Source of the DNA: Akkermansiaceae bacterium
GTDB lineage: Bacteria; Verrucomicrobiota; Verrucomicrobiia; Verrucomicrobiales; Akkermansiaceae
DNA length: 37,633 bases
Direction of reading: 5' to 3'
Assembly: GCA_011524615.1 (NCBI GenBank)
Contig: WTJZ01000071.1
Coordinates: forward strand, 4,481-42,113
Part shown: positions 2,559-31,480 of the stretch, in pieces
Position numbering within the stretch: position 1 is the first letter of the stretch
Layout of the letters: every line of letters starts with the position of its first letter
Made by a program: the position numbers and the translations under genes
The notes under the pieces: model-generated
Databases searched by the model: none
The model's input: only the letters and a program-made list of their open reading frames with translations
What the model was told of the DNA's origin: nothing

Positions 2559-5500
2559 TTACTCCGCAACAATGATTCTGGCGTACATCATACTACTATC
2601 CGGCACCTCTTCAGGTAAGATAACACTGACGGATTGCACTTCAGAATTCTCATCCGAGAGCTCCTCTTCGACCTCTAGAATGAACCAGTCGATCAGATTA
2701 CTGCTATATTCAATGCTGAATTCGACTTCATCCCTAGAGTTAGCCCGTCTTGGGTAGTGCAGCTTACATACTCCTTCTTGTTTAGTCATAGAGATTGCTC
2801 CTGCATTTTTCTCCAGAGGGTCGAGCCCTAGGGCGTATTCTAGAATATTAGGGTACGAGTCTGCATCAGAATTACCGTTCAGCTCACTGTCTATCAAATC
2901 AGGATATCCCTCCAGCCACGCTTTATAATTTTTACTCGCACTACCGATGATATCGAATTCTCTAGCGACTACGACCCCACCTGCGTTTGCGTCCTCTGAG
3001 ATTTCTATACTCATTGATTTAACATTCTGCGCTATTGGTCTGCCACTAGCCCTCTCCAGACCGACAGTAGTCCACATACTCGCTGGGTCATTCGGGAGCC
3101 AGTGCGTATTCACGATCTTGACTAATGAGTCATCAATCAGAGTAAACGTGATACCATAGCCCTGATTAGATCGTCCGCCACCGTGTATCCCCCAAGAAAA
3201 TGTAGATTCCAGACTGCTGATATCGTAGCCACCTGGGCTATTCTCGAGATCAAATGCGATCTCGATAGTATCTCCTGTGGACAACATCACCTCATCAACC
3301 GTACTTCCTGAGAACAAGCCTGCGGCAGAGACAGTTGCCCATTCGGATTGCCCCAAGTCATCATTAGAGACAGTAGGTTCTACCGACATCTGGTTCGTCG
3401 TGACACTCAGATCTGCGACAGCAATCTTTGGAGTCGTATCATATTCGATCGCAAAGGAGTCCAGACGTAGTGCTGCATTGGCATTATTCTCAATAGTGAG
3501 TGTATACTCTGCCAAATCTAATCCCTGTATTTCATACGCCACGCTATTATAATTAGTAGCGGCCGCGTACAGTGATACGACGTCTTGCAACACACCATCC
3601 AGATACACGTTCAACTCACCAGCATCGCTCCCCGCAACAGCATAAAACGTCACTCCTGTTCCGTAAAAGGTAATCTCAGCAGAGTCCCCCTGAGTATTCG
3701 TGACCGCTAGATCAGAATAGTACGCTTGGTCATCCGCTTCCTCTGTCCAGCTTCCCGTATAGACGACTCCAGAGCTCTGATTGTTCAGCTCTTCATCAGG
3801 CTCAAGCTTGGTGAAGGTATGATCCATCTCGCTTTGATCTCTCAACAGAACCACCTCTACCGTCTCTCCTGCTGGTATCTTATGATACTCAACCCAGAAA
3901 CTCTGAGGATCTGTAACGTCTACTCCTCCAATTTCTAGAATCAAGTCCAGGGTCTGAAACCCTTGAGCCTCAGCATAGCTGCCAGAGGGAACACTCGAAA
4001 AGTACACCCCATCAGTGTCTCGAGCCCCTAGTGCAGACTGAATCGAGATATCATAGACTAGACCAACGACCGCTCCCATGAGAGGCTCTGGGTTAAGAGG
4101 GCTTTCACTAGAGATCGTCGCGTACTCCACTGGCGAGGGCTCAGGAGCCCCCGCTCGACCAAATGAGGTAGGGATATTCTCATAACCAAAGGCCAATACT
4201 GGTGAACTATCGCTCACCGTGTAATCATTCCCCTGAGGATTGATAAACTGCGGATCTGCGGTCACAGAATTACTATCGTGATCAACTGAGGGCCACGTTT
4301 GAGAGGTCACTGTCACCCCTCCTCCATGGTTATAAAAGACGTTATTATCAATATAGGCACTCTTCCCCGCGATATTGGAATCATTGATCAAGGCGAAGGT
4401 ATAGACTCGGTCGTTTACGACAATATTGTTGTAGATCTCATCTCGACAATTATCAAACCAAACATGGCAATCAAACCGGCCTGAGATAATAACGTTGTTA
4501 TACGCCTTACGGCCGAATCCATCTCGGAGCTTAATCCCTGTGTTCAGGCAGAGGTTACCGTACACCTCGTAGTTAGAAGCCCCATCATCCAAATCGATCC
4601 CAAAGTGTCGAGGCTCGTCGTAGTGAAAGCGATTATACCGCACGTGCGTGGTCTTCCATGCATCCAGGAAGGCGTAGGGCTCCTTTTCTGTACCTAAATT
4701 GCCTCTTGAGTCAAACCCGAGATACGACCAATAGCGGTCTCTCCCCCAGGCATTGAAAGGTCCGTGATCGTACGTCTCCTTCACACAGTCAAAGACATCA
4801 TTATACTCAATAATGTGTCCCCCCCAAGTACCATCACAAATATTGATCCCCGCTCGTGGGCAATCATGGATTGTATTATAGCTTACATTGATGCTCTCAG
4901 ACATAGAGATATTCACCCCCGCGACCTGCTTCTCTACCCGCCCGAATCGTGTCATGTAGTTATGAGAGACCGTTAACTCTCGCGGGTAATCCTCAGATTG
5001 CGGACCAGGCTCTAGGTCCAGGATATCTACTTTATGGTCTTCATTATCCCAGAAAGAGGGATAACGAACCGCCGAAATTTGCCCCACGATATTCACACAC
5101 GTCGCACCGACTTCGTAGAATTCATTATCCGTGATTAAGTGGCCCTTATTATAACCGCTTAAGAAGACGGCATTACCTCCCAAATAGGAGAAGACATTAC
5201 CGCTCAGCGTAATATCATCACAGTTCTCCAAAAATATGGCCCCAGCTCTTGCCACGCCCCAATCACTCCTTAATGGGCGCTCATACTCTCTGGAGAATAA
5301 TGTCCGGTGAGTTTTGGTAAACTGAATATTTTGAAAGGCTAAGTTCTGGACCTTATCATCTTCTGTACCGACCACCTTAATTAACTCTTCGGTCACCGCC
5401 ACCTCGACCTGACTAGAATCCAGGTCCACTCCCTCTTCTGGATACACATAGAGATGACCACTATTAGTGTCGTAATACCACTCCTTGGGAGCATCTAGTT

Positions 5501-6188
5501 CTTCAAAGATATTTTCTACCATACGATACGTATGATGCATCGCACTTCCTCGGTTATTATCCCCTACCCATTCTAGGTCAAATACGCCCGCTCCTGTGAA
5601 GTTGACGATCTTGTATGATTGGCCTCCCCATTGACCATTATGCAGTGCTCTCACATACCCATTCTCAGGGTTACTCCAGCTCAACCTCCTCTCATTTGAG
5701 AGAATATCTCCTGCGTAGCCGTTCAAGACATCTTCATTTTCATCATAATTCGGATACCTCGCCATCACCTGCTGATCACTATTGATGAATACAGAATCAA
5801 GGTCTAAGCCCGCCCCAATGTTAGCGACCATAATCTCGCCGGCATGGACCTCCCACGTAGGACTGATCTCTATCGCCCCACATACTTCCACCACTTCACC
5901 CTCATATCCGCTATACGTTACCGATATATCCGCTGAGCCACTGTCACTGGACGTGAATTCCAGAGGTGCAGTGAGCCGGTAGACGCCTTCCCTGATCCAT
6001 ACGGTAATATCCTCGGTAGCCGTAGGTAACTCATACGCCACGGCTTCCTTGGCTCTCGCAATTGTCAGAAAGGGTGTATCAACCCCACCAGCATTGAGAT
6101 CACTCCCACTAGGAGACACATAAAAATCTACCCCAAAAGCCACATGCACCAGTAGCAAAAATAATATAACCTTCATAAAAAAACTCAT
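2559..6188 (-). CDS. Secreted right-handed parallel beta-helix protein with internal PDZ-like region and a C-terminal D-rich EYALGLDP-type domain (alternative start MKVILF at 6176)
   Basis: 1209 aa; signal peptide MKVILFLLLVHVAFG; DFYVSPSGSDLNAGG start typical of beta-helix carbohydrate-active proteins; repeated NxI/NxF rungs; PDZ-like GVYFSSVPSGSYAEAQGFQTLDLILEIGGVDV; C-terminal NSDADSYPNILEYALGLDP. Confidence 0.85.
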   Translation of the reverse strand: MSFFMKVILFLLLVHVAFGVDFYVSPSGSDLNAGGVDTPFLTIARAKEAVAYELPTATEDITVWIREGVYRLTAPLEFTSSDSGSADISVTYSGYEGEVVEVCGAIEISPTWEVHAGEIMVANIGAGLDLDSVFINSDQQVMARYPNYDENEDVLNGYAGDILSNERRLSWSNPENGYVRALHNGQWGGQSYKIVNFTGAGVFDLEWVGDNNRGSAMHHTYRMVENIFEELDAPKEWYYDTNSGHLYVYPEEGVDLDSSQVEVAVTEELIKVVGTEDDKVQNLAFQNIQFTKTHRTLFSREYERPLRSDWGVARAGAIFLENCDDITLSGNVFSYLGGNAVFLSGYNKGHLITDNEFYEVGATCVNIVGQISAVRYPSFWDNEDHKVDILDLEPGPQSEDYPRELTVSHNYMTRFGRVEKQVAGVNISMSESINVSYNTIHDCPRAGINICDGTWGGHIIEYNDVFDCVKETYDHGPFNAWGRDRYWSYLGFDSRGNLGTEKEPYAFLDAWKTTHVRYNRFHYDEPRHFGIDLDDGASNYEVYGNLCLNTGIKLRDGFGRKAYNNVIISGRFDCHVWFDNCRDEIYNNIVVNDRVYTFALINDSNIAGKSAYIDNNVFYNHGGGVTVTSQTWPSVDHDSNSVTADPQFINPQGNDYTVSDSSPVLAFGYENIPTSFGRAGAPEPSPVEYATISSESPLNPEPLMGAVVGLVYDISIQSALGARDTDGVYFSSVPSGSYAEAQGFQTLDLILEIGGVDVTDPQSFWVEYHKIPAGETVEVVLLRDQSEMDHTFTKLEPDEELNNQSSGVVYTGSWTEEADDQAYYSDLAVTNTQGDSAEITFYGTGVTFYAVAGSDAGELNVYLDGVLQDVVSLYAAATNYNSVAYEIQGLDLAEYTLTIENNANAALRLDSFAIEYDTTPKIAVADLSVTTNQMSVEPTVSNDDLGQSEWATVSAAGLFSGSTVDEVMLSTGDTIEIAFDLENSPGGYDISSLESTFSWGIHGGGRSNQGYGITFTLIDDSLVKIVNTHWLPNDPASMWTTVGLERASGRPIAQNVKSMSIEISEDANAGGVVVAREFDIIGSASKNYKAWLEGYPDLIDSELNGNSDADSYPNILEYALGLDPLEKNAGAISMTKQEGVCKLHYPRRANSRDEVEFSIEYSSNLIDWFILEVEEELSDENSEVQSVSVILPEEVPDSSMMYARIIVAE

Positions 6189-6194
6189 TAAAAA

Positions 6195-6217
6195 AGAGGT
6201 GAAAAAACTCCACCTCT
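6195..6217 (-). terminator. Hairpin plus U-tract between PEP-CTERM gene 1 and beta-helix gene 1
   Basis: Minus strand AGAGGTG-gagtttttt-CACCTCT followed by TTTTTT. Confidence 0.65.
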
Positions 6218-6247
6218 CATATCAGTTATTAATATTGTTAATTAATA

Positions 6248-6916
6248 CTATCGCTTACGTCTTGCAAGGAGTGTAATACCTGCCAAACCTAGTAAAGCGG
6301 CCGACGTCGGCTCAGGAGCTAACACATAGCCTCCACTAACTGTAATATCATCAATATTCCCAGTCCCCGTATAAATATCAGTACTCTCCATGTAAATATT
6401 CCATGTTACTTCCTCATTCGACCAGAAGTTATCAAAATCGATAGTGATCAACTCAAAAGAGTTCTCAGAAAACGCTGTTCCCTCCGTAGCCGCTGTACCA
6501 GAAACAAATGTTTCTTCACCGCCGATTGTGTATGAAACTGCGTAATCAAAAGGTCTCACAGTACCACCATAGAAGCTGATCGAGTCATATGCAGCTGTGT
6601 AGTACTCATCCGCCTCTGGCCCTGCAGCGTAGACACCTGTCGTCGTGAACGAAATTGATGCGTACTCTCCTGGAGCAACGTTACCATCAATTCTACCTCC
6701 ACGAATACCATTAAAAAGGTCATAGTTAGGATCAACTAGGTTATTAAACGACCAATGATAAGTTACCCCACTAAGATCGGAAGCAACAACATTAGCATTC
6801 CCAGCTGAATCTTGTAAGTATTGATCACCATAAACTGCATCGATATTATAGTATGCAAGTGTAGTTGCAGAGAGAGAGGAGCAGATTCCGAGCAATGGTA
6901 AGAGTATATTCTTCAT
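6248..6916 (-). CDS. Small secreted PEP-CTERM sorting domain protein, copy 1 (start revised to MKNILLPL)
   Basis: Signal peptide MKNILLPLLGICSSLSA; C-terminus APEPTSAALLGLAGITLLARRKR is a PEP-CTERM tripartite signal. The ORF-track start at 6949 precedes the likely real ATG at 6916. Confidence 0.85.
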   Translation of the reverse strand: MKNILLPLLGICSSLSATTLAYYNIDAVYGDQYLQDSAGNANVVASDLSGVTYHWSFNNLVDPNYDLFNGIRGGRIDGNVAPGEYASISFTTTGVYAAGPEADEYYTAAYDSISFYGGTVRPFDYAVSYTIGGEETFVSGTAATEGTAFSENSFELITIDFDNFWSNEEVTWNIYMESTDIYTGTGNIDDITVSGGYVLAPEPTSAALLGLAGITLLARRKR

Positions 6917-6932
6917 ATTATTTTCGTAGTTA

Positions 6933-6947
6933 GACACATGCCGTGTC
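6933..6947. promoter_or_regulatory. Leader dyad GACAC-N5-GTGTC upstream of PEP-CTERM gene 1
   Basis: Inverted repeat in the 5' leader, with an equivalent at 16942-16957 at matching distance from the start codon. Confidence 0.4.
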
Positions 6948-7058
6948 ACTACTCGGTATGCATCCTTCTCAAAAAATTACCCTCAATACTCATTTTTTTC
7001 TCACCAAGGGTATCATGAACACTCAACTCAAAACTCAGCCAAACCCACAAATAATCAA

Positions 7059-9071
7059 CTATAGACTAGAAGAGACAAAAGAAAAATCACAACCCAGCGC
7101 TTTCAACTCATCCACATACTTTTCTCTTTTTTCTCTGTCGTGTAATATTAAACGACTTAACGAGTCACACGTCTGCGGGTCAGTACAGACGACTCTAGGG
7201 ACTCCGCCTAAATTGAGCTCATCTACCTGAATGCCGCGCAAGTCTGCCAAATCGAATTCTATCGCATGCTCAAACTCCAGGGATAAGGTCTTAAGATTAA
7301 GATAAGATAGTAAAGAACCAGCCTGTATGACGGACGTATGGACGAGCCCCTGTGTACTAGAGAAACTCAAGTCTCCAGAATCTGGTTGATATGAAGCAGA
7401 ATAACTTTCTTCAGGTGAATTAAAGTAATTCAACACCGCGATAATGCATTGGTTTTGCGTAATGCTGTCTGACTCAGATGAGTACAGTTGATAGAAGAGC
7501 ATGGCTTCAATAATCGTCCTATCATCTTTGCTCCATACCTCTTCTAAACGGAGAAATACGCGCTCAAACTGATCTATGCTAGGCCTGTCATCTGCATCAA
7601 ATTGAAACTCAGGGTAGTCCTGCGCTACATGCATGATTCTCTCATACCACGCAGTATCTGTGACCGCCCCTATCTCTAACACCCGCTTGAAGTCCATCTG
7701 AACCGCATTAATCCAGAATAACTCCGCTGCTGCAGCTCGGTTGTCCGGTGCTAGTATCAGGGCCTTTTCGAACAAGAGTTCTGCATCCCCTAAGAGCTTA
7801 ACCATATTTGGCCCGGTAGGGGTACCAGTTCTCCCTAATGCCTCTTGGACCAAATCATGAGCGATACGCACTAATTTAATGGATAAGCTTTGCTGACTAT
7901 CAGCCATCACAGAGGCAAAGACCTCATACTCGTGAGTCACCTCCTCTACCTCATCATTGAGAGTACTCGCCTGTTGCTCCGAGTATGCTCTAATCGCCTG
8001 TACTCGATGCTGTTGTATCCCGATGCCTGCCATCAGTAGAACCAGAAATGTGACAAGAGCAATGACACTACGATGGTGACGCTTGAGAAAAAGGTAGCAG
8101 AACCTCAGGTAGTCTGGTCGTTCCGCTCGTGTCGCATACCCGTCGGAGTATCTCTTCACATCCTGTTTTAACTCTCGCACAGACTGATACCTCTCCTCTG
8201 GGTTAGCGGAGAGCGCCTTAGCACAGATATCAACAAGCCCCTTAGGAATTGACGCAGACAATAACTCTGCTCGAGAGACTCCCTTGAGCGTCATCTCTAA
8301 GCACTCACTCTCCTCTCCTGTGAAAGGGGCTCGACCACAGACAATGGTGTAGAGGATGGCCCCCAGAGAAAAGATGTCTGTACGTTCATCCTTGGGCCTC
8401 TCTGAATGAATTTGCTCTGGAGCCATGTAACCAGGCGTCCCCTGAACGACACCGTACATTGTGAGCATCCCCCCCACCTCTAAGTGTGAGCGCTGGGCAC
8501 TATCATGGTGGTCTAAATCCATATACTTACCTAGCCCCCAATCACACACGAGAACCTCTCCGAATTGATCACACTGGATATTACACGGCTTCAGGTCGAG
8601 GTGAATCACTCCTCGATCATGCGCATATAATACGGCATCACATACAGTCAGGAAGGTAGCTAGGAGATCCTCCTCTGAGGCGCCTTCTCTGATCACCTGC
8701 TCTAACGTGCGATTGGCCTTCAAGTCCATTGTGAAGTATGGACGCCCATGGTCATCCAGTTCGACCTCAAAGACCTTAATAATATTAGGATGACTCAAGG
8801 ACGTCGTCAACCAAGCCTCATAGATGAAAGCCTCATAGAAGTCCTTATCAAGACCTTCCCTCAACTTTGCCAATGCAATATATCGACGAGTCTTCTGGTC
8901 GTAGCACTTATATACCTCCTTCAGCGCGCCCGCCCCCAATAATTCTGGATCCGTATACTTCTCATCAACATTCTGTAACTGTAAGAATGAGGGTGATACG
9001 AGCTCCCAATCCGTCTCTTCCTCTACCGCCTCCTCAAAGAATGAATGTAACTGATCTCCCCACTTATCCAT
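7059..9071 (-). CDS. Transmembrane Ser/Thr protein kinase, copy 1
   Basis: Kinase motifs GAGALKEVY, IALAKL, HLDLKPCNIQ, CDWGLGKY, GTPGYMAPEQ; single TM SVIALVTFLVLLMAGIGI; diverged C-terminal domain. Confidence 0.95.
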   Translation of the reverse strand: MDKWGDQLHSFFEEAVEEETDWELVSPSFLQLQNVDEKYTDPELLGAGALKEVYKCYDQKTRRYIALAKLREGLDKDFYEAFIYEAWLTTSLSHPNIIKVFEVELDDHGRPYFTMDLKANRTLEQVIREGASEEDLLATFLTVCDAVLYAHDRGVIHLDLKPCNIQCDQFGEVLVCDWGLGKYMDLDHHDSAQRSHLEVGGMLTMYGVVQGTPGYMAPEQIHSERPKDERTDIFSLGAILYTIVCGRAPFTGEESECLEMTLKGVSRAELLSASIPKGLVDICAKALSANPEERYQSVRELKQDVKRYSDGYATRAERPDYLRFCYLFLKRHHRSVIALVTFLVLLMAGIGIQQHRVQAIRAYSEQQASTLNDEVEEVTHEYEVFASVMADSQQSLSIKLVRIAHDLVQEALGRTGTPTGPNMVKLLGDAELLFEKALILAPDNRAAAAELFWINAVQMDFKRVLEIGAVTDTAWYERIMHVAQDYPEFQFDADDRPSIDQFERVFLRLEEVWSKDDRTIIEAMLFYQLYSSESDSITQNQCIIAVLNYFNSPEESYSASYQPDSGDLSFSSTQGLVHTSVIQAGSLLSYLNLKTLSLEFEHAIEFDLADLRGIQVDELNLGGVPRVVCTDPQTCDSLSRLILHDREKREKYVDELKALGCDFSFVSSSL

Positions 9072-9082
9072 GGCGCTCCTTA

Positions 9083-9715
9083 CTAATACGATTCCAACTC
9101 GTCTACGAGACTCCTAATCTCGAGCATTAAACTCCTTTGAACCCGTTTCCTAAAGTTATAAACGGAGGATTCCTGGAGCCCTAACTGATCAGCAATCTCC
9201 TTCGCCTTCAACCCTGTTAGAGAAAGCTTAAACACCTCGATCGCACGACCTCTGATCGTCTTCTCAACGCGAGCGAGGGCCTGATCACTAATATAAGCCT
9301 CCCACTGCTTCTCGATGATCTGATCTAGGACCTCATCTTGCTCCTCGAATAAGACCAGATGATCCTTAAAGCGATCGTGCTTCTTCTCGATCGACTGCAT
9401 CTTACGGTAATGCATCTGGAGAGTACTCCTCGTAACCATGGCGAGCCATGACCTAAACCGCCCCTTATTAGAGTCATAATTCTTCAGCTTTTTCATGAGG
9501 GTAATCATCACCTCCTGAACTAGGTCATTCGCATCACTCGGCGAAACCCTCAAGCGTTGTAAAGTGAAATGAATAAAACCAGCATAATGATCATGTAACT
9601 CCTGCCATGCCGTATGATCATCTAGGTTTAAGGCTCGCCCTAGTAGCGAATGCCTCGTCTCTTGTGAATTATTCATATCCATATTTACCGTTTTTGGGCA
9701 GGGGGAATCAATCAT
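9083..9715 (-). CDS. ECF-like sigma-70 family RNA polymerase sigma factor, copy 1
   Basis: Region 2 (ANDLVQEVMITLMKKLKNYDSNKGRFRSWLAMVTRS) and region 4 HTH (LSLTGLKAKEIADQLGLQESSVYNFRKRVQRSL). 11-nt gap to the kinase. Confidence 0.9.
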   Translation of the reverse strand: MIDSPCPKTVNMDMNNSQETRHSLLGRALNLDDHTAWQELHDHYAGFIHFTLQRLRVSPSDANDLVQEVMITLMKKLKNYDSNKGRFRSWLAMVTRSTLQMHYRKMQSIEKKHDRFKDHLVLFEEQDEVLDQIIEKQWEAYISDQALARVEKTIRGRAIEVFKLSLTGLKAKEIADQLGLQESSVYNFRKRVQRSLMLEIRSLVDELESY

Positions 9716-9784
9716 TTTAGATGACGACTCCCCTCCTTCGCGCCCATTCTTTTACGAAGAGCGAGCAGGGAGGTGAGACACCCC

Positions 9785-9829
9785 CTTTATATCTCGTATG
9801 CAAGCAATGAGCAATTCTCTACTCTTTTG
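9785..9829 (-). promoter_or_regulatory. Conserved promoter-like block upstream of sigma factor copy 1
   Basis: Minus strand CAAAAGAGTAGAGAATTGCTCATTGCTTGCATACGAGATATAAAG, closely matched upstream of copy 2 at 19834-19880. Confidence 0.5.
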
Positions 9830-9879
9830 AGAAGAAAATCTCTAAAAAAGCAAAAAACTGCCCCTCCTACAAAAGAGCA

Positions 9880-10557
9880 CTAAGGCCTCGCCTGTCCTTC
9901 TGTCTCCGTGATCAACGCTTGGATCTCCCTAATTAGGCTACGCTTCACACGTAGCCTAAAGTTGTACACGGTAGACTCTCTCAGATTCAGCTCCCCCTTG
10001 ATCTGCTCGACAGATTCGCCGGCCAGTGAACGCTGAAAGACCTCTATCGCCTTCCCTTTGATCATTTGCTCCACGCGTACATACGCCTTTTCGCAAAGAT
10101 AGTTCTCCCACTGATGTTTAATCATTCTGTCGAGCGTATCATCTGAATGCGCGCACAACTCCTGGAAATGCTGATATTCATCATACTTGCGTTGTATCGA
10201 GCCCAGCTTTCGATAATGCATCTGCAAGACTCTCCTCGTAATCATAGCGAGCCACGGTCTGAATTGCCCTCGCCGAGCATCAAAAGTATGGAGATTCTTC
10301 ATCAGACTAATCATCACCTCTTGTACTAAGTCATCTTCATGAGAGGCCTCCACATGGGCCCCTCTTAAGAAGTAGTGGAGAAAGGATCTGTAATGCCTAT
10401 AGAGCTCGACCCAAGCATCTTCACTATCGGCCTTGCTGGCTCGCGCCAGTAAGGAGTAGCGTGTCCCCTCTGAGTCTCTCATTGCCTCACGAAGCATCTC
10501 CCCCCAAACTCTCTGAGGAGGAATAGGCGACGCGGAACCTTCGTCACGATCACTCAT
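9880..10557 (-). CDS. ECF-like sigma-70 family sigma factor, third paralogue without its own kinase
   Basis: Homologous to the 9083-9715 product: DLVQEVMISLMKNLHTFDARRGQFRPWLAMITRR and LRESTVYNFRLRVKRSLIREIQ. Confidence 0.88.
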   Translation of the reverse strand: MSDRDEGSASPIPPQRVWGEMLREAMRDSEGTRYSLLARASKADSEDAWVELYRHYRSFLHYFLRGAHVEASHEDDLVQEVMISLMKNLHTFDARRGQFRPWLAMITRRVLQMHYRKLGSIQRKYDEYQHFQELCAHSDDTLDRMIKHQWENYLCEKAYVRVEQMIKGKAIEVFQRSLAGESVEQIKGELNLRESTVYNFRLRVKRSLIREIQALITETEGQARP

Positions 10558-10946
10558 AGCCCTCTATCTCGTCAGGAACAGCAGCCCTAACTCGCCCGCA
10601 CTTAATCCGTATACGTTCTTATTCACATGATTACGTTTGCACTCTAACCCGGATTTTACCCTCAAAAGCAGTCGCACAGTCTGATTCCAATGACTTCTGA
10701 GCGCTCCAGACCACCAGAACATCCCCTATCAACTGCAGCCCCTACACACGCTTAATCAGGGGGCATTCTCAGATGATCCACCCCAACCACGCCCCACTTA
10801 AGCACTCTAGTAAGAGATAAAAGTAGCCTCAACGTGCAATACGGAGAGTAATTTGCACCGCTCGGATCAAACAAACTTTTAGACGGGGCTGACCGATCAC
10901 AGCTTCCGCCTCACTATTACCCGCTCTCTGGCTGCACCCTTATCTT

Positions 10947-13553
10947 ATGTTACCTATGCGTTTGTTGATTACACTCTTGCTCACCATCTGCTCTGTCTCC
11001 GCAGAGATTGTTACGACCTCAGAATCTTCTACGACCTCTCTGGCCTTCTCAGAACATGTTTCCTCACAAGACCTGATTAATAATGGACAAACCTCTCTGT
11101 CGAGCTCTGCAACAACCGCTACTGTCTCTAACTACCCAGCCAGTAACCTCAATAGCGGCGGTTACTCGAACAGTAATAATACCTATTACCAGACCTCCGC
11201 CGGACACTTTCCCGCGACTGCTACGTACTACTTAGACCTCACTTACTACCCCAATGGATATGACATCACCCAGATCTCTACCTTTGCGGGTTGGTCAAAT
11301 GGGCTCCAATTAAGAGCGAATCAACTATATTCTGTCTATGTGAGCTACATCGATTCCGATGAGTTCGTAGAAGTAGCGTCCGTTTCATATGAACCCTTTA
11401 GCGGATCAGGTGGATCATATGAGACGATGGTCACCATCACAGAAGATGAATCTGGAGTCATTGCGAGTGGCGTCGATGCCGTCCAATTCATCATTCAAGA
11501 TCCGGGGGGATATGCATTCTATCGTGAGCTAGATGTACACGGAGAGCCTACAGGTCTCGACCTCACCATTACATCTCCAGCTACTAGGGCGATTATCCAG
11601 CGCGATGCCTATGACCTGGCAGACATTACGATCACAGGGACCTACCAGACTCAACCTGACCGTATCGAGGCCAGAGCCATTCTCCGCGACGAGTCCACCC
11701 CAGGCGCCACTACAGCATGGGAAACCATTGAGAGCGCACCTAGTGGCAATACCTTCTCCGGTACTCTGAATAATGTGTTGGCAGGTGGATGGTACCTCAT
11801 TGAGGTGCGCTCCATTGTCAATGATGAAGCCCTCACCTCATCCTATATAGACAACGTAGGAGTTGGAGACATCTACCTCACAGCAGGTCAATCCAATTCG
11901 GCCAACTGGGGGCGTGGAGGATATGTGCCGACCGATGACCGTATTTCGGCTCGGGAGAGTCTCACGACTAACACCTGGCGTCACGCGTACGATCCTATTC
12001 CGATTGCGAATGGAGGAGGTGGATCTCCATGGGGAAGGCTCGGTGATTTACTGATCGCGGAGCATGGGATTCCGATCGGCATCATGGCTGTCGGAGTCGG
12101 TGGCACCTCCACCTTAGACTGGATCAACACGCTCTACACATCCAACTTACAACCCGCGATACAATCCTTTCCGGTTCAAGGCTTCAAGGCGATTCTGTGG
12201 CACCAAGGGGAAAAAGATAATGTCACAAATACCAGTTACGATACATACCTCTCCAGAATCAACTCACTCATCAGCCAAAGCCGCACGGATGCTGGGTGGG
12301 ACATCCCCTGGTATCTATGTGAAGCGGGGTATGCGGGCAATTTCCCTCTCGAGCGAGAGGAAGCGATCCAAGCCGCACAACGAGCGGCGGCCGAAGCGGA
12401 TCCACTCGTCTACTATGGTGCTCGTACCAACGACTTTCACCTAGAGGTCGCAGATGGAGGCAAGCTCTCAGACTCTGTTCACTTTAACGAGGCTGGTCTC
12501 GATGACCACGCTCAACAATGGAGCGAGATCCTTACACAAACCGCGTCCATCTCCCCGCTTAATGGGAACTTCGAAGATAATACCGATCTCACTATCACCG
12601 AGACTCCTTCACTCGCAGATAATGAAGTACACATTGTAGATAACTCTGATGTCCTTTCGCAAACGATCATCGATTGGCATATTCTCGCCACCTCAGGAAC
12701 AGCTGGAGCCGATGGGGTGAATGGCTTCTATAATCCAGGGGCAGACACGTACAGCCAAGCGGTCGATTCGCTTAATGGAGGAGTAATGGCTAATATGGAT
12801 GGGCCCCATGTCGCCTACCTCTCTGGCGGCTCAGCTGGTAACTACCTACTCAATAGCTCTCGCCAGCATGCTACCCCTAATACGATTTACACCCTTACTG
12901 CTGCTATAGGAGTCAGAGATGACAGCAGTACCTTTGGCGGAGTTACGCTAGAAATCCTATCGGATAATGTCGTAATGGCCAGCAGCTCATACACCAAAGC
13001 CGATCTCGACTTGCTCGTAGGCGGTGACACCTCAGGCACCTTTAACGACATCTCCGTCTCTTGGGACACAGGCTCAGACCTTACCGAAGGTCAATCTCTG
13101 CAATACCGTATTATCAAGAACAATGGAGACGGCACCGTCCTGGATGTCGATAACATCAGAGCGACTCAGACCAGCACCCTCACCTCATACCTGAACTTCC
13201 AGTTACAATACTGGGGCAACGATACCACCCCTCACACCTCTGAGCTGGAGGATTACGACCAGGACCAAATTCCCAACATCATCGAATTTATGTCAGGAAC
13301 AGACCCGACCACCGCAGACAACATCTTGAGTGTCGATCCAGATACTAGTTCTGCGACTGTCTCTCTACCGCTTAACAAAGAGGCAGACCACTCAGGACTT
13401 CAGCTTGAATATTCTCATGACCTAATCAATTGGTTACCAGCTGGTAGTAACGACAACAGTGGTCTCGTCACGACCAAGACCAACGAACTCTGGTCTATCT
13501 CTCTGGACCAATCACTCCTAGAGAAAACCTTCTTCAGAGTATACTCAGAGTAA
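10947..13553 (+). CDS. Secreted multidomain SGNH/SASA-type (sialate O-acetylesterase family) carbohydrate esterase
   Basis: Signal peptide; GDIYLTAGQSN catalytic block; ILWHQGEKDN; DSVHFNEAG; C-terminal DYDQDQIPNIIEFMSGTDP domain. Confidence 0.8.
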   Translation: MLPMRLLITLLLTICSVSAEIVTTSESSTTSLAFSEHVSSQDLINNGQTSLSSSATTATVSNYPASNLNSGGYSNSNNTYYQTSAGHFPATATYYLDLTYYPNGYDITQISTFAGWSNGLQLRANQLYSVYVSYIDSDEFVEVASVSYEPFSGSGGSYETMVTITEDESGVIASGVDAVQFIIQDPGGYAFYRELDVHGEPTGLDLTITSPATRAIIQRDAYDLADITITGTYQTQPDRIEARAILRDESTPGATTAWETIESAPSGNTFSGTLNNVLAGGWYLIEVRSIVNDEALTSSYIDNVGVGDIYLTAGQSNSANWGRGGYVPTDDRISARESLTTNTWRHAYDPIPIANGGGGSPWGRLGDLLIAEHGIPIGIMAVGVGGTSTLDWINTLYTSNLQPAIQSFPVQGFKAILWHQGEKDNVTNTSYDTYLSRINSLISQSRTDAGWDIPWYLCEAGYAGNFPLEREEAIQAAQRAAAEADPLVYYGARTNDFHLEVADGGKLSDSVHFNEAGLDDHAQQWSEILTQTASISPLNGNFEDNTDLTITETPSLADNEVHIVDNSDVLSQTIIDWHILATSGTAGADGVNGFYNPGADTYSQAVDSLNGGVMANMDGPHVAYLSGGSAGNYLLNSSRQHATPNTIYTLTAAIGVRDDSSTFGGVTLEILSDNVVMASSSYTKADLDLLVGGDTSGTFNDISVSWDTGSDLTEGQSLQYRIIKNNGDGTVLDVDNIRATQTSTLTSYLNFQLQYWGNDTTPHTSELEDYDQDQIPNIIEFMSGTDPTTADNILSVDPDTSSATVSLPLNKEADHSGLQLEYSHDLINWLPAGSNDNSGLVTTKTNELWSISLDQSLLEKTFFRVYSE

Positions 13554-13581
13554 CAACAGTTCATTTTCACTCTATTCGCCC

Positions 13582-13615
13582 CCCTCCTGCAGAGTTACCT
13601 CTACAGGAGGGTTTT
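13582..13615 (+). terminator. Intrinsic terminator of the esterase gene
   Basis: CCCTCCTGcAGAG-TTAC-CTCTaCAGGAGGG followed by TTTT. Confidence 0.85.
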
Positions 13616-13973
13616 GCTTTCAATGCCCCTTTCTCTGATCACTGGAGATCCTGGATGCCTGAAGACACATTTGAATCCTCAGAGCCCAATGGACTGACTG
13701 TCCTCCCCTACTGAATAGCCACTCCACTATCAGCAGATAGAGTTGAACAACCGAAGAACTATGTGGCCTTAACCCATCAGAGTTATGCGTGAACCGTTAA
13801 AGGGTGCTATCAATTAGTCTCAATCCCCCCTCTGATAATGAGTAGAACTCTCGTAAATCTGATATTCTTAGCCCCCCCTCTGATCACTTAGGCTGTAGTT
13901 TAGAGGGCAATATGCCCCCTCATAGAGCCGCCAGTAAGAGAGCTCGGCTCACACGATTTACTCTGGAGATCTC

Positions 13974-16184
13974 TTATAGTTCGAGTTCATCAACATCAGC
14001 CCCTTTGGTCTTTTGACGCTTCAATGGTAGTTTGCCTCTATACCTAGACAGAAAGGAATCTCTCGTAGTCCCCATCTGAGACACGATCTCAACCGACATG
14101 GGCTCTATTCCTAACTGATGAGCTACAGACTCTTTTCTAAAGGAAAAGTCACCATGTGGCATATCCATGAAGAGAGGATTCTCTACTCGGCTATGATGGT
14201 CTGCACTCTTGGTCGCATTCCCCTGACGTAGAGTCTCCAGAGCCTTTTGCATCCCCCCTTGTTCACTGAAATAGATGTTATAATCGAGCCCCGCTCTCAC
14301 CTTATTCAGCCCGGTGTGATACCCTTTTTCGACCAGTTCAGTGTGGTACAGTACATTATGACTCAAGTCACTATTAGGATCCACGGTGTTTCCGGCCCTT
14401 CCAGTCAGTAGACTCGCATTGATTAGGACGTTATGAGAAGCGGTATTCAGCCCTTTGACGCAGATCCCAGATGTACTAATGGTACCAAAGAGCAGGTTAT
14501 TCTTAATCAGTGCTCCATGGCTATCATCATCAGTACGAATCATCGCGCCCCCCTCATGATTATAGAGCACATTACACCGTACGACATTCCCATCACCATT
14601 CCCTGACAAGTATATGCCATTGCCGTCATGCAATAACTTCAAGCAATCATGTACTTCATTATATTCTATAAGATTCCCTCTGGCATGCATGTAGGGCTCA
14701 AATGCATCCCAGTCTTTATTAGAATCTAATGAGATCTCAGACCACCTCATCGTCGGTAAGTTCTCACGAGTCCCCTCTGGAAACATCCACTTCTTTGCGT
14801 AAGGGTTACTCATAGAATGCTTCTGATAGTACTGATCAAAGAAACGGCGACGTACCCCTGATACGACGATCCCTGTGTAGGCTAAGTCGTATACATGGTT
14901 GCGGGAAATCGTATTATGACCGCTCTGCCAAATAAAAATACCAGGAGAATGTAAGAAGATCTGCCCCACGCGTACGATTTCATTGTCGTGAATGGTATTA
15001 TACTTGTTCACATCCTTTTTCCCTGGGCCATACCCCGCGAGGAGAATAGCACTACCTCCTATGTCTCTAAACGTACAACCTGCAACCTTGTTATACTGGG
15101 CATGGAGATCCATCCTAACACCATCACTCCCCCCATCCGCAAAGGTGCAGTTCACGATCTCACACTGTTCTACACTTCTTAACCGAATCATCCCACTATC
15201 CTTATCCAGCATGTTCCAATCATGCTGTAAACCTGCATCACTTGGTAGCCACTTAGCCCGATCTGTATGCATGAAGGTTAACCCTTCGAACTGAAGCCCT
15301 CTGACTGGAACCTCATCAGCTCCAGACAAAGATGGGTCTGTATTCCCCTTTATCGAGATTAATTCATCAAGCCTCGGAGCGATAATTTGGTCGCTAGGGG
15401 CGCCTGATTTTGGGTAATAATATAGCATCCCCTCTTCAGAATTGAGCACCCATTCCCCTGGCTCGTCTAGATGGTCGATACAGTTCTCAATATACCAAGC
15501 CCCACTCATGGTATAGGTGGCAGGAATCTCTAAGTGGACCACTTTTTCACTCAAGTTTACTGACTCTATGCCTAGATAGTTGACCAACCACTTTCGTGTC
15601 GGTTGTCCATAGATCTCGAGGTCTTGTAAATTCTTCCACGACTTAAATACATCACCATCGTAGCGAAACTGATTACGGTACTGCATGATGTTGGCATATT
15701 TCTGAGTCTCCTCCCCTTTGATAACGAACCTATTCGACCTCGCACGAGGGAGTAACTCCTGCCCGTCGTAGAGGCAATGAAAGAAGGCTTCTCCTGTCGC
15801 CCACGGAACAGGCGCCTTCCAGACCTTGCCACCTTGGAGTTCGGTCTGTTGCCAATCGGTAATCCGTACTCCTCCACTCACGATCGGCTTAGCTTGAGCC
15901 GCAGCCTTATAGATGGTCACAGCAGATTCCGGAGCACTATCTGTGATGCCAAATTCTAAGGTCTGCTCAAGCTGATACACTCCATCACCAATACTCACTA
16001 TAATATCTCCCGACTCACCCGCCTCTCGCAGTTCACGAACTTTATCTCTAGCCGCATCCAGAGTATTGATCTCTCCTGTAGGTGAAACCTCTAATCTCAC
16101 CGCTGCAGAAATAGAAGTCGCAGGCCAAAAAACAAAAAGGAGAAAATTAAAAAAGAATTTCATAAGTGATCTGATTATATACAT
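13974..16184 (-). CDS. Secreted right-handed parallel beta-helix protein, copy 2 (alternative start MKFFFNFLLF at 16163)
   Basis: Signal peptide; LEVSPTGEINTLDAARDKVRELREAGESGDIIVSIGDGVYQLEQTLEF; repeated beta-helix rungs; same overall organisation as the N-terminal part of the 2559-6188 product. Confidence 0.85.
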   Translation of the reverse strand: MYIIRSLMKFFFNFLLFVFWPATSISAAVRLEVSPTGEINTLDAARDKVRELREAGESGDIIVSIGDGVYQLEQTLEFGITDSAPESAVTIYKAAAQAKPIVSGGVRITDWQQTELQGGKVWKAPVPWATGEAFFHCLYDGQELLPRARSNRFVIKGEETQKYANIMQYRNQFRYDGDVFKSWKNLQDLEIYGQPTRKWLVNYLGIESVNLSEKVVHLEIPATYTMSGAWYIENCIDHLDEPGEWVLNSEEGMLYYYPKSGAPSDQIIAPRLDELISIKGNTDPSLSGADEVPVRGLQFEGLTFMHTDRAKWLPSDAGLQHDWNMLDKDSGMIRLRSVEQCEIVNCTFADGGSDGVRMDLHAQYNKVAGCTFRDIGGSAILLAGYGPGKKDVNKYNTIHDNEIVRVGQIFLHSPGIFIWQSGHNTISRNHVYDLAYTGIVVSGVRRRFFDQYYQKHSMSNPYAKKWMFPEGTRENLPTMRWSEISLDSNKDWDAFEPYMHARGNLIEYNEVHDCLKLLHDGNGIYLSGNGDGNVVRCNVLYNHEGGAMIRTDDDSHGALIKNNLLFGTISTSGICVKGLNTASHNVLINASLLTGRAGNTVDPNSDLSHNVLYHTELVEKGYHTGLNKVRAGLDYNIYFSEQGGMQKALETLRQGNATKSADHHSRVENPLFMDMPHGDFSFRKESVAHQLGIEPMSVEIVSQMGTTRDSFLSRYRGKLPLKRQKTKGADVDELEL

Positions 16185-16194
16185 TATTTAATAA

Positions 16195-16223
16195 CAAAAA
16201 GAGAGGTATAGAAATACCTCTCT
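16195..16223 (-). terminator. Strong intrinsic terminator between PEP-CTERM gene 2 and beta-helix gene 2
   Basis: Minus strand AGAGAGGTAT-4 nt-ATACCTCTCT (perfect 10-bp stem) followed by TTTTTG. Confidence 0.8.
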
Positions 16224-16253
16224 TACGATACTATGTAAATTATAATTTTCGAA

Positions 16254-16925
16254 CTACGCTCTCTTACGTCGGGTAATGAGAGTAATACCTGCAAGACCTA
16301 GTAGCGCCGCAGAAGTTGGTTCAGGGGCTAGCACATAACCTCCAGATACTGTGATATCATCGAAATACGGTGTTTGAGTGTAAACACTAGTATTTTCAAA
16401 GTAGAGGTTCCATGTGACTTCCTCATTGGACCAAAAATTATCAAAATCAATGGTAACCAAATCAAATGAATCGGTTGAGACAGCTGTGCCGTCTGTCGAT
16501 GAGGTCCCAGAGATAAAGGTTTCAACCCCACCTATAGAATAGGACACCGCGTAATCAAAAGACCTAATTGTACCGGTGTAAAAGCTGATCGAGTCGTATG
16601 CAGCGGTGTAATACTCATCTGGGTTTGGTCCCGCAGCATATACACCTGTAGTTGTAAATGAGACCGTTGCAACGCTACTAGGAGCAACCGTCGATGATAG
16701 TTGACCACCGCGCACATCGTTATAGAGAGTAACGTTTGGTGTAACTAAGTTATTTGTCGCAGTAGCAGCCCCAACACCTACTAAATCTGTAGCAACTACA
16801 TTAGCATACCCCGCTTGGTCCTTTAAGTGAGCGCTTTCGTAAATGTAGTTAATATCATAGTAGGCCAAAGTAGTAGCAGATACTGATGAACATAGTGCAA
16901 GTAGTGGTAAGAGTGTATTCTTCAT
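16254..16925 (-). CDS. Small secreted PEP-CTERM sorting domain protein, copy 2 (start revised to MKNTLLPL)
   Basis: MKNTLLPLLALCSSVSATTLAYYDI signal; C-terminus APEPTSAALLGLAGITLITRRKRA; clear paralogue of the 6248-6916 product. Confidence 0.85.
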   Translation of the reverse strand: MKNTLLPLLALCSSVSATTLAYYDINYIYESAHLKDQAGYANVVATDLVGVGAATATNNLVTPNVTLYNDVRGGQLSSTVAPSSVATVSFTTTGVYAAGPNPDEYYTAAYDSISFYTGTIRSFDYAVSYSIGGVETFISGTSSTDGTAVSTDSFDLVTIDFDNFWSNEEVTWNLYFENTSVYTQTPYFDDITVSGGYVLAPEPTSAALLGLAGITLITRRKRA

Positions 16926-16941
16926 AATAATTTTAGTAGTT

Positions 16942-16957
16942 TGACATTTTCGTGTCA
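16942..16957. promoter_or_regulatory. Leader dyad TGACA-N6-TGTCA upstream of PEP-CTERM gene 2
   Basis: Inverted repeat aligned with 6933-6947, same distance to ATG. Confidence 0.4.
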
Positions 16958-17107
16958 TTACATCGTTTGCGGCTCCCCTCACATTCTCCCCTAGAATTTC
17001 CATTTTTTTTCAGCCGCATCATTATTTCAAATGATGACATCTATTCATCCCGCCCTAGATTCACTACTCAACACGGCAAACACCATTAGATAATGGGAAG
17101 GGGTCAC

Positions 17108-19114
17108 CTAGTTGTCTGAACTAGAAAATTCCACTCGGACACCTGCATTCTGTAGCTCTTTTACATAATTGGCATTCCTCTCCCTCTCATGAAGTAAAAT
17201 TTTTCGCAGTCCATTGACTGATAATTCCCCATTTTTATAGAGTCGACAAACTCTCGTACAATCGAGGACTTCCACTCTCATACCATTGAGGTCACATAAA
17301 TTAAGACCGTAATTCTGCCCCGTCCCGACGGATAACTGATCCAACGATAGATACGACAGCAGCCGCTTTTGATTCATCGTCGTGGAGTAAACGAGGCGCC
17401 CATCTGAGTATAATGAAAGCGTATTCTCCGTACTGTTGTAGGATGACTGATAACTAGGTTCTTGATGATTAAAGTAATCGAGCACCGCCTTAACGCTCTC
17501 ATTTCTCGTAGCTGTATGGCTATTAGACACGAGCTCATAGAGAAGCATCGCCTCCACGCTCGCTCGATCTTCTAGTGCCCAATCATCCGCAAGCGCATCG
17601 ATGTAATCGGTAAAGCTTACTTTCGCGCCTAATGCTTTCCGGTCATTTAACCTGTTCGCTACATTATAGAATCGCCTTTCTTTCTCAGACATGGGCTCTT
17701 GCCCTAAGTCTAGTAAGCTGACCATATCCCTCTGGACGATATTGACATGCCGTAAGAGACTGACGGCAGCCCTATTTACCTCATAGACGTCACAGGCCTT
17801 TTCCAGTAATAACTCCGCCTCCCTTAAGAGAATAACCATTTCAGGGCCAATCTCGTCCCCATCCCTCCCCAGTGCATCCTGAATTAAATCATTCGCAGTA
17901 CGGACTAACTTGATAGATAAGCTTTTCTTACTATCTGCCATAGCAGAAGCGAACACCTCATACTCGTAAGTCAACTCGTCTACCTCCTCACTCAGAGTCG
18001 TCACCTGGCGCTCTGATAGCGCTCTGCTCTCCTGTTCTCGTTGTACCCTGCGCTGCTGAATCCCAATTCCAGTCATCAGTAGAATCAGAAAGACACTCCC
18101 CGCGATCACACTTCTGTGATGACGCTTGAGGAAGAGTAGGCAGTACCTGAGGTAATCAGGGCGCTCCGCTCGAGTGACATAGCCCTCTGAATACCTCTGA
18201 ACATCCTGTCTGAGGTCCCTCACAGACTGATACCTCTCCTCTGGCTGCGCCGAGAGTGCTTTGGCACAGATATCGACGATCCCCTTAGGAATAGGTGAGG
18301 CCATCAGGTTCTCTCTAGAGGCCCCCTTGAGTGTACGCTCAAGGCACTCTTCTACCTCTCCCGTAAAGGGAGGTTCTCCACAGACAATAGTATAGAGGAT
18401 CGCCCCTAACGCAAAGACATCCGCACGCTCATCTTTGGGCATCTCAGCATGGATCTGTTCAGGAGCCATATAACCAGGTGTCCCCTTTATATAACCATAC
18501 ATCGTGACCATCCCTCCAGCCTCTAAATGGGAGAGCGGATCTCGTCTCACCTCTTCAGAGTCTAGATATTTCCCTAAGCCCCAATCACACACGAGTACCT
18601 CCCCAAATTGGTCGCATTGGATATTACTCGGTTTCAGGTCGAGATGAATCACCCCTCGATCATGGGCATAGGAGACCGCATCACATACGGTAAGAAAGGT
18701 CTCCAACAACTCCTTCTGTGACACCCCCTCCTCGATCACCTGCTCAAGAGTCTGATTCGCCTTTAAGTCCATGGTGAAATAAGGACGGCTCTCCGTATCT
18801 AATTCTACTTCAAAGACCTTAATAATATTCGGATGACTAAGAGAGGTCGTCAACCACGCCTCATAGATGAAGGCTTCATAGAAGTCCTCATTAAGGTCCT
18901 CTCTCAGCTTGGCTAATGCGATATGTCTACGGGTCTTCCTGTCGTAGCACTTATAGACCTCCTTAAGCGCTCCTGCACCTAACAACTCCTGCTGCGAATA
19001 CTTCTCGTCAACATTCTGTAACTCTACAAAAGAAGGAGAAATGAGGTCCCAGTGAGGCTCCCCATCTGTGGCTAACTCAAAGAATGAGTGCAGCTGATCA
19101 CCCCATCTCTTCAT
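17108..19114 (-). CDS. Transmembrane Ser/Thr protein kinase, copy 2
   Basis: GAGALKEVY, HLDLKPSNIQ, CDWGLGKY, GTPGYMAPEQ; TM VIAGSVFLILLMTGIGI; start overlaps the 3' end of the sigma gene. Confidence 0.95.
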   Translation of the reverse strand: MKRWGDQLHSFFELATDGEPHWDLISPSFVELQNVDEKYSQQELLGAGALKEVYKCYDRKTRRHIALAKLREDLNEDFYEAFIYEAWLTTSLSHPNIIKVFEVELDTESRPYFTMDLKANQTLEQVIEEGVSQKELLETFLTVCDAVSYAHDRGVIHLDLKPSNIQCDQFGEVLVCDWGLGKYLDSEEVRRDPLSHLEAGGMVTMYGYIKGTPGYMAPEQIHAEMPKDERADVFALGAILYTIVCGEPPFTGEVEECLERTLKGASRENLMASPIPKGIVDICAKALSAQPEERYQSVRDLRQDVQRYSEGYVTRAERPDYLRYCLLFLKRHHRSVIAGSVFLILLMTGIGIQQRRVQREQESRALSERQVTTLSEEVDELTYEYEVFASAMADSKKSLSIKLVRTANDLIQDALGRDGDEIGPEMVILLREAELLLEKACDVYEVNRAAVSLLRHVNIVQRDMVSLLDLGQEPMSEKERRFYNVANRLNDRKALGAKVSFTDYIDALADDWALEDRASVEAMLLYELVSNSHTATRNESVKAVLDYFNHQEPSYQSSYNSTENTLSLYSDGRLVYSTTMNQKRLLSYLSLDQLSVGTGQNYGLNLCDLNGMRVEVLDCTRVCRLYKNGELSVNGLRKILLHERERNANYVKELQNAGVRVEFSSSDN

Positions 19115-19733
19115 TTGCGCTCCTTACTGGCACCACCTCAGATTCTAATTCCTCCACAAGACTTCTGATCTCCAACTTTAACTTCCGCTGAACCCTCTGC
19201 CTAAAGTTATAAACAGACGACTCTTGGAGGTCCAGTCTCTCCGCGATTTCCTTCGTTTTCATCCCGGAGAGAGAAAGCCTAAACACCTCAATCGCCCGGC
19301 CTCTAATGGTCTTCTCTACTCGGGCTAACGCTTTCTCACTGATGTACGTCTCCCATTGCTTCTCGATCATCTTATCCAGCACCTCATCCTGCTCTTCGAA
19401 CACCACCATATGGTTCTTATAACGATCATGCTTTTTCTCAACCGACTGAATCTTACGGTAATGAATCTTGAGAGTACTTCTCGTAACAATAGCGAGCCAC
19501 GATCTAAACCGCCCCTTAGCTGAGTCATAATTCTTCAGATTCTTCATGAGCGCGATCATCACCTCTTGGACCAGATCATGAGCGTCACTCGGCGAGACTC
19601 GGGCTCGCTGTAAGATATAATGAATAAAACCAGCATAATGATCATGTAGCTCCTGCCACGCAGTGTGATCATCTAACTGTAAGGCTCGCCCTAATAGCGA
19701 ATGCCTCGTCTCTTGCGAATTATTCATACCCAT
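19098..19733 (-). CDS. ECF-like sigma-70 family sigma factor, copy 2
   Basis: Near-identical organisation to the 9083-9715 product: MNNSQETRHSLLGRALQLDDHTAWQELHDHYAGFIHYILQRARVSPSDAHDLVQEVMIALMKNLKNYDSAKGRFRSWLA. Confidence 0.92.
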   Translation of the reverse strand: MGMNNSQETRHSLLGRALQLDDHTAWQELHDHYAGFIHYILQRARVSPSDAHDLVQEVMIALMKNLKNYDSAKGRFRSWLAIVTRSTLKIHYRKIQSVEKKHDRYKNHMVVFEEQDEVLDKMIEKQWETYISEKALARVEKTIRGRAIEVFRLSLSGMKTKEIAERLDLQESSVYNFRQRVQRKLKLEIRSLVEELESEVVPVRSANEEMG

Positions 19734-19833: not shown

Positions 19834-19880
19834 CCTTTTATATTCGTATGCAGCCTAATAGAGATTCTCTACTATTTTGT
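19834..19880 (-). promoter_or_regulatory. Conserved promoter-like block upstream of sigma factor copy 2
   Basis: Minus strand ACAAAATAGTAGAGAATCTCTATTAGGCTGCATACGAATATAAAAG, matches 9785-9829. Confidence 0.5.
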
Positions 19881-20044: not shown

Positions 20045-20950
20045 TTACTTCTTCGTGCGCCAAATACCAGCGAGCAGACTCCCAACGAGGCAGTGACAAA
20101 ATGCCGAAATAGCAGAAGGAACAGGCGCTAGAGGGTTCGCCAAGCAGGCAGCGAGACATGCTCCTAGCCCGCTGTTTTGCATCCCGACCTCTATACTCAC
20201 GGTACGCCTATCGTCTTCGTTACATCCACAGAGCTTAGCAACGAGGTATCCAAGAGCGAAGGCGGTAATATGGAGCGTAAAGACAGCGATAATCAGGTTC
20301 CAACCCGCTCCAACGATAGCATCCTTCTTGAGCCCTATGATACACCCTACGATCATGATGATAGCGATTACGGAGACGATTGGTGAGTATTGGGAAATCG
20401 GTTTCACCCAGCGGCTTCCCCATTGATTCAAGGCTAACCCTGCGAGCACAGGTAACAGCACAACCGTTAAAGTCTTCTTCAATAGAGCCAACTCATCAAT
20501 AGGAACATGTTCTCCCGCGAGCCATCCTGTTAAGTACGGAGTCAAGAAGACCGCTAGAACAGTCGAAGTCATGGTCATCAAGACACTTAAAGAGACATTA
20601 CCACGCGAGAGGAAAACGATCACATTACTCGCGGTCCCCCCAGGGCAACAACTCACGAGAATCAGCCCAGCCGCTAACCCTGGTTCTAAGCCAAAACCTT
20701 TTGCGATAAAGTACCCGAGGGTAGGCATAATCACGAACTGTGCCGCGACTCCTATCCCCACACCTACAGGACGCTTAAAGACAGCTAGGAAGTCTCCCCC
20801 TGTCAATGTCATCCCCATCCCTAACATAATCACTCCCAGAGCAGGAGTAATGTAAGGAGCGAACCAGGTAAAAGCCTCAGGCATGAGCCACGCCCATCCT
20901 ACACCTAAGATAGTCCAAAGCCAAAAGAGGTTTGTAATCTTGCTCACCAT
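20045..20950 (-). CDS. Bile acid:sodium symporter (BASS) family transporter
   Basis: Multi-TM protein; LGVIMLGMGMTLTGGDF, LVSCCPGGTASNVIVFLSRGNVSLSVLMTMTSTVLAVFLTP, VSIEVGMQNSGLGACLA are BASS hallmarks. Confidence 0.92.
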   Translation of the reverse strand: MVSKITNLFWLWTILGVGWAWLMPEAFTWFAPYITPALGVIMLGMGMTLTGGDFLAVFKRPVGVGIGVAAQFVIMPTLGYFIAKGFGLEPGLAAGLILVSCCPGGTASNVIVFLSRGNVSLSVLMTMTSTVLAVFLTPYLTGWLAGEHVPIDELALLKKTLTVVLLPVLAGLALNQWGSRWVKPISQYSPIVSVIAIIMIVGCIIGLKKDAIVGAGWNLIIAVFTLHITAFALGYLVAKLCGCNEDDRRTVSIEVGMQNSGLGACLAACLANPLAPVPSAISAFCHCLVGSLLAGIWRTKK

Positions 20951-29907: not shown

Positions 29908-29911
29908 TCTC

Positions 29912-31351: not shown

Positions 31352-31480
31352 CCCCTTTCTCTCCCGCCCTGCGGGAATGAAAAAATCGGAGAATCGGCTC
31401 ACCAGTTTGATTCTCTTTCCACAAACAACCAACCAATAGAGCCGATCTCCAGAGAGGCTACTAACCTAAAAAACAAGACT

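Follow-up and report, generated by a model that had tools for sequence, protein, structure and literature searches.

Sigma Factor–Receptor Kinase Pairs With a WNK-Like Lysine Pattern Are Expanded and Lie Near PEP-CTERM and Glycan-Degradation Genes in an Akkermansiaceae Genome

Introduction

ECF43 sigma factors (ECF, extracytoplasmic function) are regulated by, and encoded with, transmembrane Ser/Thr kinases of the Hanks type. In the pairs EcfP/PknT of Vibrio and EcfK/PknS of Xanthomonas, the acidic DxxD motif of sigma region 2.2 has been lost (it is QTTA-like) and phosphorylation of a threonine by the kinase restores the charge (PMC13147305). The DNA considered here, hereafter the window, is a stretch of 37,633 nucleotides from an Akkermansiaceae bacterium (assembly GCA_011524615.1, contig WTJZ01000071.1, positions 4,481 to 42,113) that carries two copies of a locus in which a sigma factor gene is followed by genes for a membrane kinase, a PEP-CTERM protein and a beta-helix protein. 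The likeness to ECF43 lies in the sigma–kinase pairing, found here in at least 30 adjacent pairs with a single transmembrane (TM) helix in the kinase; the differences are that the acidic DxxD motif is kept and that the kinase lysine has moved to the glycine-rich loop.

The latter feature recalls the eukaryotic WNK kinases, which alone among the functional kinase families of eukaryotes have no beta3 lysine; a similar shift was recorded only in a choline-kinase-like bacterial group, and in WNK1 the HRD arginine (R348) contacts the alphaC glutamate in the inactive state (PMC1821047). Sequences without a beta3 lysine are usually called pseudokinases and, in the accessible part of a 2025 review, loss of this residue is described for several bacterial pseudokinase families, none of them with the combination reported below (PMC12599244). 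The DLHK pseudokinases (PMC12599244) share with the present family the missing beta3 lysine and basic residues in beta2, but they have no TM helix, come mostly from proteobacteria and use arginines, whereas the present kinases have a TM helix near residue 335 and an invariant lysine.

We describe a real and unusually expanded sigma–receptor-kinase system whose links to PEP-CTERM and glycan-degradation genes are statistically supported; the active-site pattern of the kinases is its most surprising part. Our search of the open literature found no description of such pairs beside sulfatase genes or of WNK-like bacterial receptor kinases, and how large sulfatase and glycosidase gene sets are controlled in Verrucomicrobiota and Kiritimatiellota is hardly addressed in the literature searched.

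The Duplicated Locus and Its Recurring Unit

The genes of the two copies, together with a third sigma factor gene, are as follows.

9083–9715, minus strand: sigma factor A, ECF-like, with sigma2 and LuxR-like sigma4 (PF04542 E = 2e-15, TIGR02937 E = 2e-19)
7059–9071, minus strand: kinase A, N-terminal Ser/Thr kinase with C-terminal sensor region (PF00069 E = 2e-39)
6248–6916, minus strand: PEP-CTERM protein A, start MKNILLPL (TIGR02595 21.1 bits, cut-off 16)
2559–6188, minus strand: beta-helix protein A, GH141-like, with PDZ-like stretch and C-terminal tail (PF13229 E = 4e-13)
19098–19733, minus strand: sigma factor B, 83% identical to sigma A (PF04542 E = 3e-15)
17108–19114, minus strand: kinase B (PF00069 E = 9e-41), overlapping sigma B by 17 bases (gap -17)
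16254–16925, minus strand: PEP-CTERM protein B, start MKNTLLPL, longer open reading frame to 17003 (TIGR02595 21.8 bits, cut-off 16)
13974–16184, minus strand: beta-helix protein B, GH141-like (9rx2 E = 1e-124, 5mqp E = 1.5e-18)
9880–10557, minus strand: third sigma factor of the same family, unpaired, directly upstream of sigma A and 47–49% identical to sigma A and B

The original prediction, made from the letters of the window, was of a duplicated order in which all four positions are paralogous. The open reading frames, order and strand are as it claimed, and Pfam and NCBIfam matches agree, but true duplicates are found at three of the positions: between copies A and B the sigma factors are 83%, the kinases 60% and the PEP-CTERM proteins 68% identical, whereas the beta-helix proteins are only remote homologs of unequal size (22% identity, E = 8e-16). 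Kinases A and B are sisters in the kinase tree with support of 100/100, so that their similarity is far above chance. These comparisons indicate that the sigma, kinase and PEP-CTERM genes were duplicated jointly and that the beta-helix gene is a cargo differing between the copies. The overlap of sigma B and kinase B is likely to reflect translational coupling. The predicted model of the PEP-CTERM protein was not usable (predicted local distance difference test, pLDDT, 38). The third sigma gene was not part of the prediction's description of copy A; further sigma genes, tandem to a pair or flanking it (sigma–sigma–kinase or sigma–kinase–sigma), also occur at L090:537–1827 and L062:1697–4925.

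Beyond the window it is the two-gene sigma–kinase pair that recurs, and not the four-gene cassette that had been put forward as a conserved unit. The host, a small marine bacterium, is represented by a draft genome of 2.71 Mb in 315 contigs (86% complete) with family matches for 41 sigma factors and about 36 kinases. Thirty adjacent same-strand pairs were found, with gaps of -20 to 99 bases, and two further pairs (C257 and C276) taken from match coordinates bring the number to at least 32. A PEP-CTERM gene lies within 3.5 kb at 14 of 35 kinase loci, on either side and either strand, and a beta-helix gene at few. Runs of unknown bases, either scaffold gaps or masked sequence, lie near some pair loci (L087:3331–4830, L065:2575–2919, L082:7675–7995), and some neighboring genes are incomplete.

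Sigma factor and kinase behave as a co-inherited unit. Their distance matrices are correlated (Mantel r = 0.64, with 0 of 5000 label shuffles as high; r = 0.58 without copy A), a test by label shuffling that cannot tell functional coupling from simple co-duplication. By kinase region, the correlation is 0.61 for the kinase domain, 0.51 for the TM/stalk region and 0.05 for C-terminal residues 481–668; kinase-domain correlation without C-terminal correlation is what would be expected of a kinase with an output half bound to the sigma factor and an input half free to diverge. A single clear TM helix near residue 335 is present in nearly all kinases tested. The C-terminal region, modeled with a pLDDT of 76 and a predicted template modeling score (pTM) of 0.52, combines a long helix with helical repeats and a minor beta portion, and had no PDB match at E <= 0.001. 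A role in defense was rejected, PADLOC matches being to the kinase domain only, with none for the sigma factor or the PEP-CTERM protein.

Kinase Active Site

Kinase A has one TM helix near residue 335, a lysine in the glycine loop, no beta3 lysine, and the motifs HLD and DWG, and the same pattern runs through an alignment of 76 kinases (27 from the host genome and 49 from relatives). In place of the third glycine of the GxGxxG loop, 76/76 have lysine, and the beta3 lysine position is occupied by alanine in 75 and valine in one, the following position being variable. In kinase B the loop lysine is Lys51 and the residue at the beta3 position is Ala68. The alphaC glutamate, the HxD aspartate, the lysine and asparagine of the catalytic loop and the APE glutamate are each present in 76/76, and the DxG aspartate in 75/76. 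HRD has become HLD, with leucine in 74/76 and the arginine in 0/76, and DFG is DWG throughout. All 10 outgroup kinases, found by similarity (2 from the same genome and 8 from other phyla), have a VAxK-type lysine and no loop lysine. The best PDB matches of the kinase are to mycobacterial PknB.

By the usual rule, as given in PMC12599244, absence of the beta3 lysine and HRD arginine from all 76 sequences would make these proteins pseudokinases, and the kinase could then be a catalytically dead, anti-sigma-like tether that keeps the sigma factor membrane-bound until a cue triggers its release. We regard such a tether as distinctly improbable, since the invariant loop lysine, alphaC glutamate and catalytic aspartate and asparagine, with the nearly invariant DxG aspartate, compose an active WNK-type pattern rather than one of decay.

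The present family resembles WNK, as described in PMC1821047 and PMC12599244, in having lysine at the third-glycine position and none in beta3. It differs in being a bacterial membrane receptor with a C-terminal sensor region and a partner encoded as a sigma factor, and in carrying HLD in place of HRD and DWG in the DxG motif. The two families, compared by description and not by phylogeny, likely have separate origins, and other bacterial kinase groups may share the loop-lysine pattern. By analogy with WNK, the moved lysine might confer sensitivity to ions, which is speculative. The family provides a bacterial case of a lysine relocation deemed unique to WNK among functional eukaryotic kinases in a 2007 survey, and comprises 76 natural sequences with an otherwise nearly unaltered active site.

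Neighborhood of the Pairs

PEP-CTERM and glycan-acting genes had been expected to accompany the pairs, and in the host genome they do so well above chance. Fifty-two PEP-CTERM tails score above the TIGR02595 cut-off (34 at E <= 1e-4). Under tests that assume uniform gene placement and count neighboring tails as independent, 17 of the 52 are no more than 3.5 kb from a pair where 3.1 would be expected (P about 4e-9); for 1.5 kb the observed and expected numbers are 13 and 1.6 (about 8-fold). Of 62 sulfatases, 11 are found within 3.5 kb, the expectation being 3.7 (P about 1e-3). The 89 nearest neighbor proteins include 13 PEP-CTERM proteins, 9 sulfatases, 5 LamG, 5 SASA and 5 beta-helix proteins, and glycoside hydrolases (GH) of families GH95 (3) and GH29 (1). 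Judged by family, the co-occurrence of GH95, GH29, GH141-like proteins and sulfatases points to fucose-containing sulfated polysaccharides as the putative substrate.

Distribution and Expansion

With the kinase as query at E <= 1e-60, 33 matches were obtained in the host genome, none in two congeners and 0–2 in other relatives; at E <= 1e-75 the kinase occurs in 15 of 390 sampled genomes of the phylum. In a Pontiella-like genome the number of kinases at E <= 1e-30 is 66, and the cultured species Pontiella sulfatireligans (strain F21) carries a related sigma–kinase pair. When the gene order was sought in related genomes, the pair was found to be kept in the phylum, the two genes being adjacent in 36 of the 49 loci from relatives, but only 1 of these 49 short flanking loci showed a PEP-CTERM tail. 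In the kinase tree, the host-genome kinases come close to a single group, with 2 changes; for the kinases of the Pontiella-like genome 5 are required, where shuffles give about 24. The expansion therefore looks, from these sequences, mainly lineage-specific and repeated. PurL encoded on the contig is 83–84% identical to that of both congeners, which places the contig in the genus, and an assembly chimera was rejected as its source.

Control of Sigma Factors and Neighboring Genes

As an explanation of the whole, we consider it somewhat more probable than otherwise that each receptor kinase exerts local control over its own sigma factor and over surface-glycan genes close by. The kinase is predicted to be a single-pass receptor with a cytoplasmic kinase domain, one TM helix and a fast-diverging C-terminal region outside the cytoplasm. 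It would read an envelope or substrate cue, employing the glycine-loop lysine in the manner of WNK in place of a beta3 lysine, and would modulate the sigma factor whose gene immediately precedes that of the kinase in the operon. Once activated, this sigma factor would guide RNA polymerase both to the operon itself and to adjacent genes for secreted PEP-CTERM proteins and glycan-degrading enzymes, so that every cluster of sulfated-glycan genes would have a separate local switch. For the question of how such clusters are controlled, a matched sigma–kinase pair at their side is a testable answer, a related pair being available in cultured P. sulfatireligans. That the WNK-type family is active, acts on the adjoining sigma factor, and provides one-switch-per-cluster control of surface glycan degradation in several Verrucomicrobiota and Kiritimatiellota lineages, in place of Bacteroidetes SusR or hybrid two-component systems (HTCS) or of sigma/anti-sigma control, is a wider proposal that we put forward tentatively and hold to be doubtful.

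Several observations weigh against local control. The published ECF43 activation model does not fit. The sigma factors score above the cut-off of the general ECF model TIGR02937 and below those of specific subfamily models, have a LuxR-like sigma4, and keep the sigma2.2 acidic motif, with acidic residues at both positions in 28/28 paired sigma factors of the host and the second aspartate in 39/39 from relatives. Charge rescue by a phosphothreonine was rejected on these residues; the coupling step must therefore differ from that of ECF43, and would consist in phosphorylation elsewhere or in binding. Thr9 and Ser12 of the sigma N-terminus, considered as phosphorylation sites, are also conserved in unpaired sigma factors and are not diagnostic.

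Other such observations concern promoters. A 29-base block identical at 18 fixed bases precedes both sigma genes in upstream DNA that has otherwise diverged, and constitutes a candidate promoter that may be autoregulated:

9794–9822, minus strand: candidate promoter block, GTAGAGAAT-N11-TGCATACGA, upstream of sigma A, 18/18 common to copy B
19844–19872, minus strand: candidate promoter block, GTAGAGAAT-N11-TGCATACGA, upstream of sigma B, 18/18 common to copy A

The block is strong before these two sigma genes only and nowhere else in the window above chance; upstream of PEP-CTERM genes the closest match, 14/18 in copy B, does not exceed what the window would yield by chance, copy A is without it, and no common motif was seen when upstream DNA of other sigma genes was read by eye. 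Furthermore, sulfatase proximity is weak in the Pontiella-like genome, where 18 of 66 kinases lie within 5 kb, the expectation from shifts being 12.6 and as high a number being reached in 247 of 4000 of them, and weaker still against local shifts.

This weak proximity would also suit pairs that are general stress or envelope regulators and stand near secreted-protein genes only through the variable part of the genome, their neighbors not being under their control. The position and strand of the PEP-CTERM gene differ between loci, as such a role would allow, and the purL region of congener G001 is without the window's genes (none of the others in 40 kb upstream or 7.5 kb downstream of purL). 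The PEP-CTERM enrichment within 1.5 kb is nevertheless tighter than a loose accessory-region effect, and genes farther from the pairs on the same contigs are mostly housekeeping; we therefore judge general regulators of this sort unlikely and prefer local control.

PEP-CTERM Proteins and Exosortase

The tails found here resemble those of PEP-CTERM/exosortase systems (Haft 2006, 2012, cited in PMC4960237) in having PEP, a hydrophobic stretch and a basic end; the difference is that exosortase was not detected in the genus. The host genome gave no TIGR02602 or PF09721 match and congeners G001 and G002 (93% and 88% complete) no PF09721 match, though 20 of 29 genomes searched score strongly. The congeners have PEP-CTERM proteins nonetheless (10 and 8 at E <= 1e-4). 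Thus the exosortase link drawn in the original prediction, with PEP-CTERM proteins as exosortase substrates and the unit as a matrix-export system, accords with the 52 canonical tails of the host but meets no detectable exosortase in three genomes, and we think it very improbable. Either the exosortase is too divergent for the models, or the tails are otherwise processed or membrane-retained. Two other Akkermansiaceae genomes, G010 and G013, have 93 and 76 PEP-CTERM tails at E <= 1e-4, exosortase, and only one kinase of the sigma-paired family each.

Other Genes of the Window

Further genes of the window are listed below.

10947–13553, plus strand: secreted SASA-type carbohydrate acetylesterase with HpiC1-like domain, between the copies (PF03629 E = 9e-18, PF22825 E = 7e-18)
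20045–20950, minus strand: sodium/bile-acid-type (SBF) transporter adjoining the sulfatase (PF01758 E = 1.5e-41)
21001–22530, minus strand: sulfatase upstream of copy B (PF00884 E = 2e-56)
33212–34096: formylglycine-generating-enzyme-like gene

The formylglycine-generating-enzyme-like product could be a sulfatase maturation factor. Both beta-helix proteins match the sequence of the GH141 enzyme BT_1002 (PDB 5mqp; E = 8e-14 for A), glycosidase activity here being predicted, and that of the solved beta-helix protein 9rx2 (E = 3e-22 for A), the match being far stronger for B. They differ from GH141 in scoring below the cut-off of 27 for the Pfam model GH141_M (PF21231), at 25.6 bits for B and 13.9 bits for A. 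Many large secreted proteins (for example 2559–6188, 34148–36997 and L078:3181–6450) show by eye a common C-terminal tail that contains a D-x-D-x-D repeat and 'EYALG.DP' and closes with residues like 'FFRL', which may be a further surface-sorting signal. Lastly, a cluster at 27886–33104 encodes an FAD-dependent reductase with a BFD domain, a multiheme cytochrome, small cytochrome-like proteins and a globin-like protein, and by its gene content looks like a nitrogen-oxide or electron-transfer module.

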